A stretch of 5,851 bases of DNA, from assembly GCA_022822245.1 (NCBI GenBank), contig JAJECB010000480.1, positions 1-5,851 on the forward strand, read 5' to 3'. The notes beneath the pieces were generated by a model. The model was not told where the DNA came from. It did no database searches and worked only from the letters and a program-made list of their open reading frames with translations. This document shows positions 151 through 5,851 of this stretch, in pieces. A program made the translations under genes and the position numbers. The stretch's first letter is position 1; each line of letters opens with the position of its first letter. This DNA is from Gammaproteobacteria bacterium. Its GTDB lineage: Bacteria > Pseudomonadota > Gammaproteobacteria > HK1.

Positions 151-1695
151 ATGAGCATCTTCAGCGCCTACCCGCGTCGCAAGTTCCTGAGGAACGCGGC
201 CGCCGGCGCCGGCGCGGCGGCCGCCGCCTCGGTGCTGCCGCGAAGCGCCTTCGGGGCCCAGGCGGTGCCGCCCGGCAAGAAGCTCTTCAACGACATCGAG
301 CTCACCTACTTCCAGGACTCGAACTGGCTCCATGCGCCGCTGTGGCTGTCGCCGCACCTGAAGAAGGAGGCGGGCGTCGGCATCAAGAGCCGCGAGAACT
401 ACGGCGGGGGCGACGCGGTGGCCAAGATCCTGCCCCAGCTTCTCTCCAAGCGTCCGCGCTTCGACTGGGTTCAGTACCCGAGCCTGTTCTTCGGCGCGTT
501 CGCCGAGACCGGTCAGCTCGAGCCGCTGGACGACTATCTCGCCAAGTACGAGGGCACCGGCGACTACCTGGACTGGGTGATGCCCGCCTACCGCGAGTTC
601 TATACCAAGTGGGACGGCAAGACCTACGGGATGATGCTCGACGGCGACATCCACATCCTTCACTACCGGAAGCAGTACTTCGACGATCCGGGCCTGCAGA
701 AGAAGTACTCCAAGCGCTTCCAGCGCGAGCTCGCGGTCCCGAAGACGTGGAACGAGTTCATCGACGCCACCCAGTTCTTCACCGAGGAGCTGAAGAGCCA
801 GAACGTCTACGGCACGTCGATGGTGGTGAACCCCCCGAACTTCGGGTGGGGCTTCTGGATGGACATCGCGGCGTCGGCCGGGGTGAACTATTTCGACGAG
901 AACATGAACCCCACCATCAACCAGGGCAAGGCCGCCGAGGCCCTCGACATGTACAAGGAGATCATCAAGTTCGGGCCGCCGGGGGCGGAGGCGATGGACA
1001 TCGGCACCACCATCCAGCGCTGGCAGTCCGGCTCCGACGTCATGTCCGTGTGGTGGATCGACCTCTCCGAGTTCACCGTGCAGCAACAGGGGGTGGAGCT
1101 CGCCGAGGACCAGCGCGGAGCCATCGTTCCCGGCTGGCAGAACGACGACGGATCGATCACCAACCGGGCGATCTCCCTCTGGTGCCGGACCGCGTCGGTG
1201 CCGAAGAACATTCCGGAGGACGTCAAGGAAGCGGCCTTCTACTTCATCTACCGCATGTCCCATCCGGACTACTCGAACGACATCGTCGCCGACGAGTACT
1301 GCGGGTCGGATCCGTTCGGGAAGACCCACTACGGCGACGAGGCGGCGAAGCTCTATCTCGGGGCCAATCCGCAGCGGGGGACGGACAACGAGCTCTGGCC
1401 GACCAATTCCGGCATCTTCAAGAATTTCGACACGGCCAAGAACCACCTGGACGCGGGGCTGGCCAACGTCGAGGTCGGCTATCCGCAGTTCTTCTGGGAA
1501 GGCGCGCCGGAGTACGCGGACGCCCTCGGGCGCAACATCTCCAAGGCGATCTCCGGCGAGCTGACCAGCCAGCAGGCGCTGGACGAAGCGGCCGAGGAGT
1601 GGGTGAAGATCTCCCAGAACCTCGGCCTCGACAGCCAGAAGCGCCAGTACGCGAACTTCGTCGAAGGGGCCCGCAAGCTCGGATACAAGATCTGA
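151..1695 (+). CDS. Tat-exported ABC transporter solute-binding protein, family 1 (carbohydrate type)
   Basis: A 514-residue protein that should capture a solute in the periplasm and deliver it to an ABC importer. Residues 1-38 form a twin-arginine signal: P-R9-R10-K-F-L-R, an Ala/Gly-rich hydrophobic stretch, and a plausible cleavage site after A36-Q-A38. Export as a folded protein is therefore expected. The mature part of about 476 residues is rich in Trp, Tyr and Phe, and its length and pattern fit the large family-1 extracellular solute-binding proteins. It opens with a beta-strand-like ELTYFQDSNW and includes a segment after residue 100 (RFDWVQYPSLFFGAFAETGQ, then LEPLDDYLAKY) typical of the first lobe, where the target position is followed by an L-x-x-L-D-D motif. 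The start is set by TAAGGAGG 7 nt upstream. The gene follows the tail of a probable ABC ATPase and is followed by a strong hairpin, so it seems to be the last gene of its operon; no permease is in the window. The ligand cannot be read from the sequence. The fold is fairly sure; a sugar or polyol ligand is only the family default. Confidence 0.88.
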   Translation: MSIFSAYPRRKFLRNAAAGAGAAAAASVLPRSAFGAQAVPPGKKLFNDIELTYFQDSNWLHAPLWLSPHLKKEAGVGIKSRENYGGGDAVAKILPQLLSKRPRFDWVQYPSLFFGAFAETGQLEPLDDYLAKYEGTGDYLDWVMPAYREFYTKWDGKTYGMMLDGDIHILHYRKQYFDDPGLQKKYSKRFQRELAVPKTWNEFIDATQFFTEELKSQNVYGTSMVVNPPNFGWGFWMDIAASAGVNYFDENMNPTINQGKAAEALDMYKEIIKFGPPGAEAMDIGTTIQRWQSGSDVMSVWWIDLSEFTVQQQGVELAEDQRGAIVPGWQNDDGSITNRAISLWCRTASVPKNIPEDVKEAAFYFIYRMSHPDYSNDIVADEYCGSDPFGKTHYGDEAAKLYLGANPQRGTDNELWPTNSGIFKNFDTAKNHLDAGLANVEVGYPQFFWEGAPEYADALGRNISKAISGELTSQQALDEAAEEWVKISQNLGLDSQKRQYANFVEGARKLGYKI

Positions 1696-1745: not shown

Positions 1746-2096
1746 GCCGAGGAGGACAGGCCGCGTCGAGCGGTGATGTCCCTCCCGGGAGCGCGGGCAT
1801 CCCTGACCGCGCGCGGTTCGGGCTGGCGAGGTACCCTCGGCCTGGCACGGCCGACCGAGGCGACGGGGTGGATTGGAGGCTGTGCTCCGCGTCGGCGCGC
1901 GCGGGCAGGGATGCTCGTGCTCCAAATGGGCGACAAGCCTGAGTGCAGGAGCGGGCCACAAGAGCGCGGGCTTCCCGCCCGCGCGGAGCGACCCCTCAAC
2001 CTCTGCACGGGCAATATGCCCACGTTCCCAAAAAGGCTGGCCCTCCCGGGGCGCGTGCGCTCCCGGCCTGAGCTTCGCAGGTAGTCAGGAACTGTC
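1746..2096. other. Intergenic region without a supportable gene
   Basis: Open frames in this stretch are Arg/Pro/Gly-rich readings of GC-rich DNA, with no ribosome-binding site or recognisable protein. Three small dyads are visible. TCGGCC 1837-1842 pairs with GGCCGA 1849-1854, or alternatively CCTCGG 1835-1840 pairs with CCGAGG 1855-1860. GCGCGGGC 1964-1971 pairs with GCCCGCGC 1977-1984 around TTCCC, an 8-bp stem. GGGCA 2009-2013 pairs with TGCCC 2017-2021 around ATA; it lies within the 100 bases before the transporter start and could be an operator half-site pair. The promoter of the transporter gene should lie in this region, but I could not identify convincing -35 and -10 boxes. Confidence 0.5.
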
Positions 2097-2831
2097 ATGG
2101 ACGCGTTCTCGATCACCATCGTCATGCTGGTGTTCCTGCTCGCGGGAGGCGTCAAGGGCGTCGTCGGCCTCGGACTTCCCACGGTCGCGGTCGCGCTTCT
2201 CTCGGCCACCTTCGGCATCGAGGCGGCGCTGCCCCTGCTGGTGATCCCGTCTTTCGTCACCAACGTGTGGCAGGGGGCGATCGGCGGTCAGGCGATGGCG
2301 TTGTTCCGGCGCTTCGGCATCGCGCTCGCGATCATTCCCGTCACGACCTGGGTGGGCTATCGCTACGTCTTCATCGCGGCGCCGGAGGCGATGGAACGGG
2401 TGCTCGGCGCGGTGCTGGTCGTCTACGCGGGGCTCGGGCTTCGAGCCGCCCGGTTCGCGGTGCCGGCGGGGGCGGAGCCGGTGCTCACTCCGGTCGTGGG
2501 TCTCGTGAACGGCATCGTCACCGGGGTGAGCGGGACCTTCGTGGTCCCGATCGTGATGTACCTGGAGGCCCTCGGCCTCGATCGCGACCAGCTCGTGCAG
2601 ATGATGGGGATCGCGTTCAGCGTCTCGACCGCCGCGCTCGCGGCCGTTCTCATCCTGCACGGGGCGTATCGGCTCGACGCGGGGTACGTTTCGGCGGTGG
2701 CGGTCGTGCCCGCGATCGCCGGCATGATGGCCGGCGCGCGCGTGCGCGCACGTCTTTCGCCGGCCGCGTTCCGGAAATGGCTGCTCGTCGCCCTCGCCGT
2801 CCTCGGTCTCAAGCTCCTCGTCGTCGGTTGA
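2097..2831 (+). CDS. TauE/SafE-family membrane transporter (sulfite/organosulfur exporter family)
   Basis: A 244-residue integral membrane protein with about seven to eight hydrophobic segments (roughly residues 5-37, 42-60, 74-95, 102-117, 127-158, 170-190, 197-217 and 228-243). Two Gly-rich signatures of the TauE/SafE (formerly DUF81) family are present and mark its two-repeat architecture: GGVKGVVGLGLPT near residues 17-29, and GLVNGIVTGVSGTFVVP near 135-151, followed by MYLEALGLDRDQLVQ. The length is usual for the family. Members export or import small anions, such as sulfite, sulfoacetate or other organosulfur compounds, across the inner membrane; the substrate of this protein cannot be read from sequence. 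The ATG at 2097 follows a modest AGGA (2087-2090) with 6-nt spacing. It lies between a solute-binding protein and a selenoprotein gene on the same strand but is separated from both by hairpins, so it is probably its own transcription unit. The family call is secure; the substrate is unknown. Confidence 0.9.
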   Translation: MDAFSITIVMLVFLLAGGVKGVVGLGLPTVAVALLSATFGIEAALPLLVIPSFVTNVWQGAIGGQAMALFRRFGIALAIIPVTTWVGYRYVFIAAPEAMERVLGAVLVVYAGLGLRAARFAVPAGAEPVLTPVVGLVNGIVTGVSGTFVVPIVMYLEALGLDRDQLVQMMGIAFSVSTAALAAVLILHGAYRLDAGYVSAVAVVPAIAGMMAGARVRARLSPAAFRKWLLVALAVLGLKLLVVG

Positions 2832-2931
2832 GAGAAACCGGGGTCGGAGTGGGCATTTCGGCCGTCTCGATCGCCAGGGCGCCGGTTCCGCCGGTGGCCG
2901 GAGCGAAAACCCCACTCCGACCCCATTCTCT
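2831..2931. repeat. 101-bp imperfect inverted repeat, REP-doublet (REPIN/MITE-like) element
   Basis: The outer arms pair as follows: AGAGAA 2831-2836 with TTCTCT 2926-2931; then, after a 3/1 internal loop, GGGGTCGGAGTGGG 2840-2853 with CCCACTCCGACCCC 2911-2924 (14 bp, perfect); then, after a 2/2 loop, TTTCG 2856-2860 with CGAAA 2904-2908. The centre (2861-2903) folds further through the CCGG repeats near 2882-2895. The left end overlaps the last base of the transporter stop codon. From memory, the arm core resembles the short GGGGTC(A/G)GAGT...CCCCATT repeats seen scattered between genes in many proteobacterial genomes, often near REP-associated tyrosine transposases. Two REPs in opposite orientation with a short spacer form a REPIN. 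No transposase is encoded inside. It could also serve as a bidirectional terminator. The inverted repeat is certain; the mobile origin is inferred. Confidence 0.6.
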
Positions 2932-2968
2932 CCGCGCCGGAGGACGGCGTGCGCCGCCGTCGCCCCGG

Positions 2969-2996
2969 TTTCGCGGACTCCCGCCCGGAGTAGAAT
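2969..2996 (+). promoter_or_regulatory. Candidate sigma70-type promoter for the selenoprotein gene
   Basis: TAGAAT (2991-2996) matches the -10 consensus in 5 of 6 positions and stands out in this GC-rich sequence. TTTCGC (2969-2974), 16 nt upstream, is a weak -35. Transcription would start near 3003, giving a leader of about 37 nt. A perfect 7-bp hairpin (GACGGCG 2943-2949 with CGCCGTC 2955-2961) lies just upstream and may insulate the unit from the transporter gene. Confidence 0.4.
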
Positions 2997-3039
2997 GCGC
3001 CGCTTCCGCCGGACCGGGCGAACCCGAAGGACCGAACCC

Positions 3040-4275
3040 ATGGCGCGACTCTCCGACCTCCCCGGGGGCATGACGGAACACCTTCTGAAGCTGCCGCTTC
3101 CCGAATTCGACGTCACCGCCCCCGTCGCCGGACCGCCGCTCGCCGAGCGCCGGGTGGCCATCGTGACGAGCGCCGGCCTCATGCGCCGCGGCGAGGACGC
3201 CTTCGCGCCCGGGGATGCGGACTACCGGGTGATCCCCGGGGACGTCCGGGGCGCGGACCTCCTCATGAGCCACATCTCGGTCAACTACGACCGCGCGGGA
3301 TTCGTCGAGGACACGAACGTGGTGTTCCCGATCGATCGGTTGCGCGAGCTCGCGGAGGGCGGGGCGATCGGCTCGGTCGCCGACCATCACTACAGCTTCA
3401 TGGGCGCGACGGACCCCGAGAAGATGGCCCTTCCGGCCGCCGAGGTGTCGGGCCACCTCCAGGCGGATCGGGTGGATGCGGTCCTCCTCACCCCGGTCTG
3501 ACCCAACTGCACGCGCGCCGTGAGCGCGCTCGCCCACTACTTCGAACGGGCCGGGATCCCCACTGTCGTCACCAGCCTCGTGCGCGAGCACAGCGAGCGG
3601 ATCCGTCCGCCCCGCACCCTGTGGACCTCCTTCGAGCTCGGCCGTCCCCTCGGGGCGCCGGGGGATGCGGCCTTCCAGCGCCGGGTACTTCTCGCCGCCC
3701 TCGGCCTCCTCGAGGAGGTTGCGGGTCCGGTGCTCGCGGACTTCTCCGAGGACGCACCGTCGGCGGGCGCGAACGGCGCGGCCGGGGAGGACGCCTGGGC
3801 CTGCCCGGTGCGCTTCCCGAAGCCGGCGGCGTCCGATCCCGCGGACCTCGGCGCGCAGGTTGCGCAGGAGGTTCGAAGCCTCGCCCCGTGGTACGAACGC
3901 TCGCGCGAGCGCCGCGGCGGCCGGACCACGGTCGGTCTTTCGGGCTTCGCACCCGAAGCGATCGTCGAGCTTCTTGCGGGCTACGCGGAGCGCGGCGAGG
4001 AGACGAGCCCGCGTGACGGCGTCGCCTTCTCCCGCATCCTCAAGCACGCCCTCGACGACCTTCTCGCGTGGTACCGGGAGGCGGCGACGGCGCAGCCCGG
4101 GGCGACCCCGTCCGGGCGCTCGCTCGCGGCGTGGTTCTGGGGCGAGACGCGGGCGAGCCGCCTGTTTCTCGCGGTGCGCGAGCGCGGGGCCGCGAGCGAG
4201 GACCCCGCGATACGCCTGGTGGCGAAGCTCCTCCTCGTTCCCCGCGGCGCGAGCGCCTGGATCGAGGCTGAGTGA
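3040..4275 (+). CDS. Selenoprotein of the GrdB/PrdB-like (selenoprotein B, glycine/sarcosine/betaine/proline reductase) superfamily; in-frame TGA = Sec154
   Basis: One 411-residue protein is read if TGA 3499-3501 is decoded as selenocysteine; both sides lie in the same frame with no shift. ATG 3040 follows GAAGGA (3026-3031) with 8-nt spacing; the ATG at 2995 lies inside the candidate -10 box. The N-terminal half has a strand-loop RRVAIVTSAGL (37-47), then SHISVNYDRAGF (77-88), FPIDRLRELAEGGAIG (96-111) and HHYSFMGA (116-123), motifs I recall from proteobacterial 'glycine/sarcosine/betaine reductase selenoprotein B family' proteins. The active site is LLTPV-U154-P-N-C157-TRAVS, a U-x-x-C pair. 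It leads into ALAHYFERAGIPTVV and ELGRPLGAP (199-207), so family-like sequence continues on both sides of the TGA. Residues from about 270 to the end form a helical, acidic/Arg-rich region of unknown role. Clostridial relatives are subunits that reductively cleave glycine, betaine or proline in Stickland metabolism. No GrdA, GrdC/D, PrdA or thioredoxin gene is nearby, so the reaction here is unknown; a thiol/selenol redox role is the safe inference. An ordinary annotation would split or truncate this gene. Confidence 0.88.
3499..3533 (+). promoter_or_regulatory. Sec UGA codon with bacterial SECIS-like stem-loop
   Basis: TGA 3499-3501 is followed by a 6-bp stem, GCGCGC 3513-3518 with GCGCGC 3524-3529, capped by the five-base loop CGUGA. 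Below a 2/2 internal loop, two more pairs form (G3509-C3533, C3510-G3532). Seventeen nucleotides separate the UGA from the apical loop, and the loop carries G at its second position followed by U. This fits the known geometry of bacterial SECIS elements: a hairpin within the coding region close after the UGA, with a G in the first loop positions and often a GU bound by SelB. The pairing is read directly; SelB binding is inferred. Confidence 0.65.
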
Positions 4276-4412
4276 GAGGAAGTTCGTGGCAACGGACCTG
4301 GAAGCCCCGCTTGCCTGCCTCCGCACTGTTCCGAGAATCGGTCATCCGGTACCGGGTCACATGGAGGTGTCTCCCGGATGGCCGCGACCGGTGCGGTAAC
4401 TGGAGACATGGG

Positions 4413-4478
4413 ATGAGAATCTCGACGATCCTGGACCACATCGATTCCGGGCACATGGCTTTGCCCGAGTTCCAACGG
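4413..4478 (+). pseudogene. Remnant 5' end of a DUF262 (GmrS-like) gene
   Basis: ATG 4413 has a good GGAG (4402-4405) with 7-nt spacing. The first 22 codons read MRISTILDHIDSG, then HMALPEFQR. This is the characteristic start of DUF262 proteins, the GmrS part of GmrSD-type modification-dependent restriction enzymes, where an I-x-x-I/L-L-x-x-I-x-S-G segment is followed by the catalytic-region L-P-x-F-Q-R. In intact members the next residues are usually G-(Y/F)-V-W and a domain of hundreds of residues. Here similarity stops right after FQR (about 4478), and the frame runs on into the antisense of the Uma2 gene with unrelated sequence, so the gene is truncated. It lies 138 nt after the selenoprotein stop; 4276-4412 holds no supportable gene, only a CCGGTACCGG palindrome (4346-4355) and a short dyad. 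The rest of the gene was probably lost when the neighbouring DNA was rearranged. A short match of 20-odd residues cannot be fully certain. Confidence 0.6.
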
Positions 4479-4552
4479 AAGCCGCGCATCAGGGCGGGGG
4501 TGCGCTGGCCGGCAATGACGAATGCGCTTGGTGCGGAGGTCGGCAGCCCTCG

Positions 4553-5602
4553 CTACATTTCCGGCTCGCCCCGCAACCGGCGAAGTTCCGCCCGTAGCTC
4601 GGCGGCTTCCTCCTCGGCGGCTCGAACACGGGACTCCGTCGCGCGGCGGGCGGCTTCCACCTCCCGGGCACGGGCCTCGGCTGCCTGGGCACGGGTCTCG
4701 GCTTCCCGAGCATGGGCTTGGGCTTCTTGGGCATGGGCCTCGGCGGCTTCGCGCGCGGCGTGGACTTCGTCGTAGTCCTCCAGGTCTTGCCCGGCCACCG
4801 GGTCGTGCCATCGAAGCGCCTGCTCCGGCCCCTCCAGATACACCCACAGGCCCAGGGTCTCGCTGCGCAGCCCCTGCTCGCCGTTCCCAAGACGCTCCGG
4901 CCGCAGCGGCCGATACCGCCCGTCGCGGAGCACGTGGCCCTGCAGCCGCGGCTCCAGCCGTCCGCCTACCGGGTCGTAGAGAAAGTACTCGCGCACACCA
5001 AGCTTCTCGTAGAGTGCCGGCTTCTCGTCCCGGTCGCGCTTCCACGTGGAGACCGACGCGACCTCCATCACGAACTCCGGCGCCTTGCCCTCGCGCCACA
5101 GCGCATAGGAGCGCCGGCGGTGATTCCCCACCCCGAAGGCGACGAGCACGTCGGGCTCGAGCCACGGCGGCCGGACCCGGCCGGGCACGTCCGGCGAGAT
5201 GGTGTCGTAGAGCAGGGTGTAGCAGGCCACGTACGTCCCCGGGTGACGCCCGAGCACCCGCCTCAGCGCGGACGCCGTGTACCGCAGGACCTCTTCCTGC
5301 TCCATCAGATCAGGCGGGGGCAGGTCGTCGATGGAAGGCAGGTCGTCGTCGGTGAGGGCGAGGAGCTCGGACCGGGTTACGCGGGGCAGGTCCTGCATCC
5401 GCAACGGAAGCAGATCGCTCAGGGTGGGCAGGTCGTCGTCGGTGAGAGCGAGGTACTCGTCCCGCGTCAATCCGGAATAGTCCTGCATCAGGATCGCCAT
5501 CAACTCCTCTCTGGTGCGCTCCACCGAAGGCTTGTCGGGGGTCGCCGGGTGCTGCCCCCGCCCGTCGGAGCGGGGCTGCGATGCGGGGGCAGGCTCGGCC
5601 AT
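4553..5602 (-). CDS. Uma2-family (DUF820) PD-(D/E)xK nuclease-like protein with N-terminal tandem repeat and C-terminal coiled coil
   Basis: A 349-residue protein whose start, ATG at 5602-5600, is chosen because GAGGAA (5615-5610) precedes it with 7-nt spacing; an ATG 28 codons upstream has no such site. Residues 1-35 are disordered (Ala/Pro/Asp). Residues 39-68 and 69-98 are a tandem duplication with shared MQD, TR-x-E-x-LALTDDDLP. The Uma2 domain spans about 100-265: EPD151-VLVAFGV, FVME180-VASVST, DEK194-PALYEKLGV, EYFLYDP, then LQGHVLRDGRYRPL. D151, E180 and K194 are the expected PD-(D/E)xK residues, all intact, so the fold is probably catalytic or DNA-binding. From about 280 to 340 an Ala/Glu/Arg heptad-rich coiled coil should mediate oligomerisation. 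Classic members are near 190 residues; this one is longer at both ends. Uma2 genes are widespread in cyanobacteria, Chloroflexota and some proteobacteria, often in many copies per genome; their biological role is not established. The gene is convergent with the truncated DUF262 gene. Confidence 0.88.
   Translation of the reverse strand: MAEPAPASQPRSDGRGQHPATPDKPSVERTREELMAILMQDYSGLTRDEYLALTDDDLPTLSDLLPLRMQDLPRVTRSELLALTDDDLPSIDDLPPPDLMEQEEVLRYTASALRRVLGRHPGTYVACYTLLYDTISPDVPGRVRPPWLEPDVLVAFGVGNHRRRSYALWREGKAPEFVMEVASVSTWKRDRDEKPALYEKLGVREYFLYDPVGGRLEPRLQGHVLRDGRYRPLRPERLGNGEQGLRSETLGLWVYLEGPEQALRWHDPVAGQDLEDYDEVHAAREAAEAHAQEAQAHAREAETRAQAAEARAREVEAARRATESRVRAAEEEAAELRAELRRLRGEPEM
5337..5489 (-). 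repeat. Tandem 90-bp-period duplication inside the Uma2 gene
   Basis: Copy A (5337-5399) and copy B (5427-5489) align without gaps over 63 nt, with 49 identical bases by my count. They begin with the same 20-mer (GGCAGGTCGTCGTCGGTGAG) and end with the same GTCCTGCATC. The period of 90 nt keeps the frame and encodes the 30-residue repeat at residues 39-98. A third short match to the start of the unit lies at 5319-5330. The two identical ends flank a more diverged middle. Confidence 0.85.
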
Positions 5603-5851
5603 GGGCAACTTCCTCGATATGTGGGAGGCGTGGCAACGGGCGCACCATCGCACCGCGGCGGAAACGGTGCAAGCCCTCGACACCAAACGTCCGGCGCGGC
5701 GCGGGGGCGTGCGCAGCCCGGACCTCTATCCGCTGGGACGGGTCCGGGGCGTGCAGGGAGCGGCGTGGCGGCGGCATGCGGGACGGCGGGTTCTCGGCGG
5801 GGGGGCCGGAGCGGGTCCCGCCCATCATCGGCGCCCGGCGTCGCCCTCGAA
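5603..5851. other. Region upstream of the Uma2 gene, no supportable gene
   Basis: This should contain the Uma2 promoter on the minus strand, but no convincing -35/-10 pair is visible. A 6-bp dyad, GCACCG 5650-5655 with CGGTGC 5665-5670, lies about 50-70 nt upstream of the Uma2 start and could be a leader hairpin or operator. A plus-strand frame opens at ATG 5601 and runs to the window edge. Its first 27 codons look plausible (MGNFLDMWEAWQRAHH...), but it has no clear ribosome-binding site and turns Arg/Gly-rich afterwards, so I do not call it a gene. Confidence 0.4.

Follow-up and report, generated by a model that had tools for sequence, protein, structure and literature searches.

Two adjacent reading frames very probably form a single selenoprotein gene from a widespread branch of the D-proline/glycine reductase selenoproteins

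The short gene and the orphan frame that follows it in the window (the whole 5,851-nucleotide stretch of gammaproteobacterial DNA analysed here) are very probably one selenoprotein gene, belonging to a widespread and often mis-annotated branch of the D-proline/glycine reductase selenoproteins. An earlier note on this DNA had proposed that the two open reading frames should be joined, and our analysis agrees: the frame that runs to TGA 3499-3501 and the frame at 3520-4275 are in a common register on the plus strand, and after TGA 3499-3501 no in-frame stop occurs before the TGA at 4273-4275. The whole gene, as defined by this frame and by its homologs, occupies 3040..4275 (plus strand) and comprises 411 codons and the stop TGA 4273-4275. 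When the internal TGA is read as selenocysteine (Sec), a protein of 411 residues results, in which U154 lies within LLTPV-U-PNC-TRAVSALAHY and forms the U-x-x-C motif that the earlier note had recognized. The start at 3040 is backed by homologs with the same N-terminus (for example, MVRLSELP in P0025), and AAGGA at 3027..3031 on the plus strand, 8 nt before ATG 3040, is judged from the sequence to be the likely ribosome-binding site of the joined gene. The second half has no good ribosome-binding site of its own, as had been claimed, with AGG, GGA and GAG all absent between the TGA and GTG 3520. The GTG that gene callers take as a start (3520..3522, plus strand) is Val161 in the joined gene and was correctly placed inside a hairpin (3513-3529), falling within its loop at 3519-3523. 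The open frame by itself is weak evidence, the DNA being GC-rich, and 51 of 2000 base-shuffled versions of 3502-4272 were also free of stops. The coding character described for both sides of the TGA was, in turn, recovered as third-position-biased change relative to L001, a 94% relative: mismatches at codon positions 1/2/3 number 7/7/20 in the 153 codons before the TGA and 8/2/31 in the 257 codons beyond it, a pattern that indicates coding constraint on both sides.

The codon at 3499..3501 (plus strand), assigned as the Sec codon of the UPNC motif by homolog alignment, can be followed across a large family through its TGA copies and Cys forms. A species-genome scan gave 499 relatives, and the comparison was restricted to the 80 best loci. 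Pseudomonadota, Chloroflexota and Thermodesulfobacteriota are among the phyla represented in these best 80 of 499. The copies compared are the 85 plus-strand gene copies on these loci that span the UGA site, and TGA is present at the Sec site in all 85. A protein database search returned 416 matches at E <= 0.001, 120 of which were listed; the matches listed include 22 long homologs, and 21 of these are continuous with Cys in a CxxC at the site, the exception being P0039, which is without the motif region. Homologs with Sec or Cys at position 154, which the earlier note had looked for, are thus found in both forms. Its expectation that such genes would be annotated in two parts is also borne out, since 98 of the 120 matches listed are C-terminal pieces of 235-273 amino acids, all aligning from residue 156-168 of the joined protein and 91 of them having the Val161 'start' as their first aligned residue. 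Sec and Cys forms alike conserve the C-T/S-R stretch that separates the UGA from the GTG. On a tree of 86 Sec and 21 Cys rows, four changes of label are required, only one of them forced by the starred branches, and this indicates that Sec is the prevailing state in a set selected for proximity to a Sec query. Two gene copies, both with TGA, are present in each of L021, L023, L025, L038 and L066, and the second L038 copy has one extra codon between U and C.

Downstream of the UGA, a bacterial SECIS-like stem-loop, GCGCGC-CGUGA-GCGCGC (3513..3529, plus strand, loop 3519-3523), is indicated by base pairing, covariation and a published model. It has a 6-bp stem, an 11-nt gap after the UGA and 17 nt from the UGA to the loop, and two further outer pairs are possible (3509-3510/3532-3533). 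The available portion of PMC13188914 gives a bacterial SECIS model with a stem of 4-16 bp, an apical loop of 3-9 nt, a G in the first two loop positions and 16-37 nt from the UGA to the loop; the hairpin that the earlier note had called SECIS-like agrees with this model in stem, loop, G and spacing, its 5-nt loop CGUGA having G in second and U in third place. The loop G-U is present in 85 of 85 copies. In the alignment of 85 rows, 83 of them distinct, pairing is seen in 90.0% of cells; it falls to 86.4% when the partners are shuffled and to 66.7% or less when they are slid. Both sides are changed in 20 cells, where 4.9 would be expected, and the covariation score reaches 0.167 versus 0.091, an equally high value being obtained in 0 of 500 shuffles; kinship among the rows inflates these controls. 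Three pairs show at least one double change versus 2.2, a number reached by 165 of 500 shuffles, and in 41 of the 83 distinct rows the middle pair (columns 17/29) does not form. Against synonymous recoding, in which protein and codon usage are fixed and the control is likewise inflated by kinship, 86 copies pair in 89.7% of cells and the recoded sequences in a mean of 54.7% and a maximum of 60.5% (1000 trials). In addition, Thr158 is encoded by ACG in 78 of 85 copies, whereas ACG accounts for about 30% of the other Thr codons of these genes. The energy of the single-sequence hairpin is ordinary, at least equal stability being obtained in 148 of 200 shuffles and in 30% of 2000 synonymous recodings. 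Two Cys-form genes are without the loop G-U doublet, yet retain 5 and 4 of the 6 pairs in the stem, which indicates that the stem is in part a consequence of the protein sequence. Together, the TGA in 85 of 85 copies, the covariation, the synonymous-recoding null and the third-position-biased change indicate that the open frame and the hairpin are more than chance.

On these sequence comparisons, Sec is almost certainly inserted at U154; UGA 3499-3501 would be decoded as selenocysteine by SelB and tRNA-Sec, with the hairpin directing the event. The opposite reading, in which the UGA is a true stop and a second protein is made from GTG 3520 by translational coupling or as the product of a split gene, agrees with the cut made by gene callers and with the many database pieces that begin at Val161, but is very improbable: no SD-like triplet precedes GTG 3520 after the TGA, only 52 of 85 copies have GTG as the Val161 codon, nearly all long homologs listed (21 of 22) are continuous with Cys, and the C-T/S-R residues, which would lie between the two proteins, are conserved in Sec and Cys forms. 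One base change would be enough to produce the TGA from TGC, TGT or TGG in a pseudogene or by sequencing error; nevertheless, TGA in every one of the 85 copies, from several phyla, and constraint on both sides of the codon leave this explanation a negligible probability, and the independent assemblies in effect refute it.

Sec machinery for the window gene is documented by proxy, through G001, the genome that holds L001. This locus is the nearest relative, with 94% protein identity to the joined protein and 94-96% DNA identity to the window over two blocks, 5-1772 and 2092-5242, and G001 carries selA, selB, selD and a tRNA-Sec with anticodon UCA (ARAGORN). We surveyed the machinery in 25 draft genomes, the sources of 25 of the 80 loci, and in 14 control genomes. 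Among the 25 related drafts, tRNA-Sec was over the cut-off in 22, selB in 22, selA in 24 and selD in 22, the misses falling on different genomes; the same cut-offs were passed by 5, 2, 1 and 2 of the 14 controls, respectively. The tRNA-Sec cut-off of 47 bits is loose, as the five passing controls indicate, and the best scores of the 22 passing related genomes are 58.8-77.1 bits. A wider survey covered 289 genomes of the class of G003, searched with a Cys-form query, and found the gene in 23, with TGA in 21 and Cys codons in 2; the UGA-form match in G059 also contains a TAG. A selA gene was present in 41 of the 289 genomes. It was found in 20 of the 21 UGA-form genomes (all but G289), in neither of the 2 Cys-form genomes and in 21 of the remaining 266, giving a Fisher p of about 2e-18. 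In several genomes selD lies within open frames of 729-819 amino acids (for example, G001:C137:9344-10249), consistent with the Ndh-SelD fusions that the available part of PMC2398784 describes, and in other genomes selD itself has an in-frame TGA.

The gene is also physically linked to sel genes in a number of genomes. In 9 of the 21 UGA-form genomes of this class (G059, G078, G092, G127, G219, G221, G233, G286 and G312), selA is at most about 10 kb away on the same contig, the two genes being divergently oriented and about 130 bp apart in G312 and G219. Among the best 80 of 499 loci, ARAGORN located a tRNA-Sec inside 8, and ARAGORN combined with SelA/SelB/SelD similarity searches, whose seeds were named by eye, located part of the Sec machinery in 10; no sel link was seen in the remaining 70, many of which are short. 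In 6 of these 80 loci (L017, L042, L047, L048, L063 and L078), the selenoprotein gene is immediately preceded, on its own strand, by a SelD-like gene. The order SelD-like gene, selenoprotein gene, 2OG/Fe(II) oxygenase gene is found in L042 (7301 onward), L078 (4075 onward) and L063 (4842 onward). A TauD-family (PF02668) domain is in the same chain as the Cys homologs P0032 and P0036, and on the minus strand of L098 a Cys form is followed, past a single stop codon and in an unchanged frame, by a TauD-like frame (1465-2742 and 2746-3603). The next gene in L042 represents a different 2OG/Fe(II) oxygenase family, PF13640, relatives of which stand in tandem in L042 and L078, with a piece in L063. 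A 2OG/Fe(II) oxygenase anywhere in the locus was found with two queries in 7 of 104 loci, L042 and L107 being apparently the same sequence, and the tie of the selenoprotein or its Cys form to these oxygenases is suggestive only.

Within the window, the selenoprotein gene is preceded by genes for an extracellular solute-binding protein (SBP_bac_1; 151-1695, plus strand), whose Tat-like N-terminus scores below the cut-off and which is kept in L001 and L002, and for a TauE/SafE-type permease (2097-2831, plus strand), which is in the block common to L001. A Uma2-family putative endonuclease, assigned by Pfam and sequence, is encoded at 4553-5686 on the minus strand and has a C-terminal coiled-coil-like tail of near-repeats. 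Elsewhere, one neighbour is common to L036 (3847-5439), L062 (815-1861) and L065 (3018-4358); the L036 and L065 copies have no Pfam family over the cut-off, and the L062 copy has a GMPVVPPT motif, a protein of which kind we take to be the partner of UGSC selenoproteins.

The assignment as 'GrdB/PrdB-like' in the earlier note stands at the superfamily level but does not extend to PrdB or GrdB proper. Pfam GRDB (PF07355) matches residues 17-151 with 46.5 bits (cut-off 22) at model positions 205-345 of 347, and TIGR01918 (glycine/betaine/sarcosine/D-proline family reductase selenoprotein B) is marginally exceeded (65.9 bits versus 65.45) by the joined halves only. The best NCBIfam match, TIGR04483 (PrdB), covers residues 25-227 (2e-29) with 102.7 bits, below its cut-off of 300, and TIGR01917 (GrdB) reaches 58.5 bits, below its cut-off of 602.2, and only at model positions 201-401 of 431. 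Like PrdB, the window protein has a UxxC active site and a homologous N-terminal domain; unlike PrdB, it has an extra helical C-terminal domain, and the partner family is found in few related genomes. This partner, the pyruvoyl subunit family PF09338, which we take to cover PrdA, is over the cut-off in 3 of 25 related drafts, with one further weak match; GrdA (PF04723) is over the cut-off in the same three, and neither has a match in G001 or G002. The comparison with GrdB is aided by a frame in L093 (UxxCxxC), called GrdB-like from its place in a PF09338 locus and not by a model, which has an aligned TGA and has H78, D84 and D91 in common with the window protein, whereas N93 is not shared. In contrast to GrdB, the window protein is without the first ~200 GrdB positions, and GrdA accompanies it in only those three drafts.

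An AlphaFold model of the joined protein (pLDDT 91.8, pTM 0.92) has an alpha/beta domain and, C-terminal to it, a helical domain. The PrdB/GrdB-like catalytic domain, as delimited by TIGR04483 (25-227) and Pfam GRDB (17-151), comprises residues 25-227 (3112..3720, plus strand), and the all-helical C-terminal domain of ~180 residues, without a Pfam match, comprises residues 231-411 (3730..4272, plus strand), with low to middling model confidence for residues 241-270. Over 107 rows, H78, S80, D84, D91, N93, U/C154, C157 and E169 are invariant or nearly so, as are P191-R192, E277, D340, Y345 and T370. We propose that the N-terminal ~230 residues would form a GrdB/PrdB-type active site from U154-x-x-C157 and H78-S80-D84-D91-N93. 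By analogy with the family, the selenolate may attack a substrate or reduce a bond, and it could then be regenerated through a selenenylsulfide with Cys157. A redox enzyme using U/C-x-x-C is highly likely, and Sec insertion and this redox role, taken together, are held with equally high confidence. The protein is most likely a putative stand-alone selenol reductase related to PrdB/GrdB, and not a D-proline or glycine reductase. That it works alone, without a pyruvoyl partner, is probable, because it has its own helical C-terminal domain and because 22 of 25 drafts have neither PF09338 nor GrdA over the cut-off. The C-terminal domain might help to bind the substrate or an electron donor, which we regard as a possibility somewhat short of even. 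A stand-alone, pyruvoyl-independent class in which the helical domain replaces the partner subunit, and which is coupled in some lineages to 2-oxoglutarate/Fe(II) oxygenases, by fusion (P0032, P0036) or as the adjacent downstream gene (L098, L042, L078), is a more doubtful extension of the proposal.

Two other functions have to be weighed against a stand-alone reductase. The protein could be a true PrdB subunit of D-proline reductase (or a GrdB subunit) that acts together with a partner bearing the pyruvoyl group, as the best NCBIfam match, the GRDB score over its cut-off and the name 'D-proline reductase (dithiol) PrdB', given to P0033, P0073 and P0118 by a source, would suggest; with scores far below the PrdB and GrdB cut-offs, partner families over the cut-off in three of 25 genomes and without a match in G001 or G002, and an additional domain of ~180 residues, such a subunit is quite improbable. 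A protein that serves selenium metabolism itself, for example in selenide delivery or recycling, would account for the adjacency of sel genes in several lineages, including the 9 of 21 UGA-form genomes with selA no more than ~10 kb away (~130 bp in two of them), tRNA-Sec in 8 of 80 loci and the SelD-like gene upstream in 6 of 80. This role is unlikely, although less so than the preceding one: the sel link is absent from most loci, linkage may only reflect the co-transfer of machinery and client, and Cys forms persist in 2 genomes without selA, which indicates that the activity is useful without selenium. A stand-alone reductase related to PrdB/GrdB is the reading that we prefer.

PrdB and GrdB are listed as Sec families in the available portions of PMC13188914 and PMC9312934, and marine 'PrdB' selenoproteins with UxxC have been reported in numbers, 42 Sec sequences in the Sargasso Sea survey (available text of PMC1088965) and 235 in the GOS survey, where pfam07355 is in the GOS table (available text of PMC2398784). 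With these marine sequences the present group has the UxxC motif in common, and several of its loci bear marine titles (SAR116, SAR202); as far as the available texts describe them, the marine 'PrdB' sequences probably overlap the present group. On those texts, publications on marine 'PrdB' UxxC selenoproteins go back to 2005, so that the kind itself is already known. The available parts of PMC12013277 and PMC8124441 do not mention the present group, and a literature search, in part of top matches only, found no account of the C-terminal domain, of the absence of partners or of the linkage to sel genes.

The family is common, with 499 relatives in one species-genome scan. Joining the two halves turns a short gene and an orphan into a testable putative selenoenzyme, with a helical domain that has no Pfam family and with genetic links to the Sec machinery. 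Its natural Sec/Cys pairs offer a way to ask why selenium has been kept. The oxygenase coupling, if true, would suggest a pathway that depends on oxygen, in contrast to the Stickland reductases, which are anaerobic.
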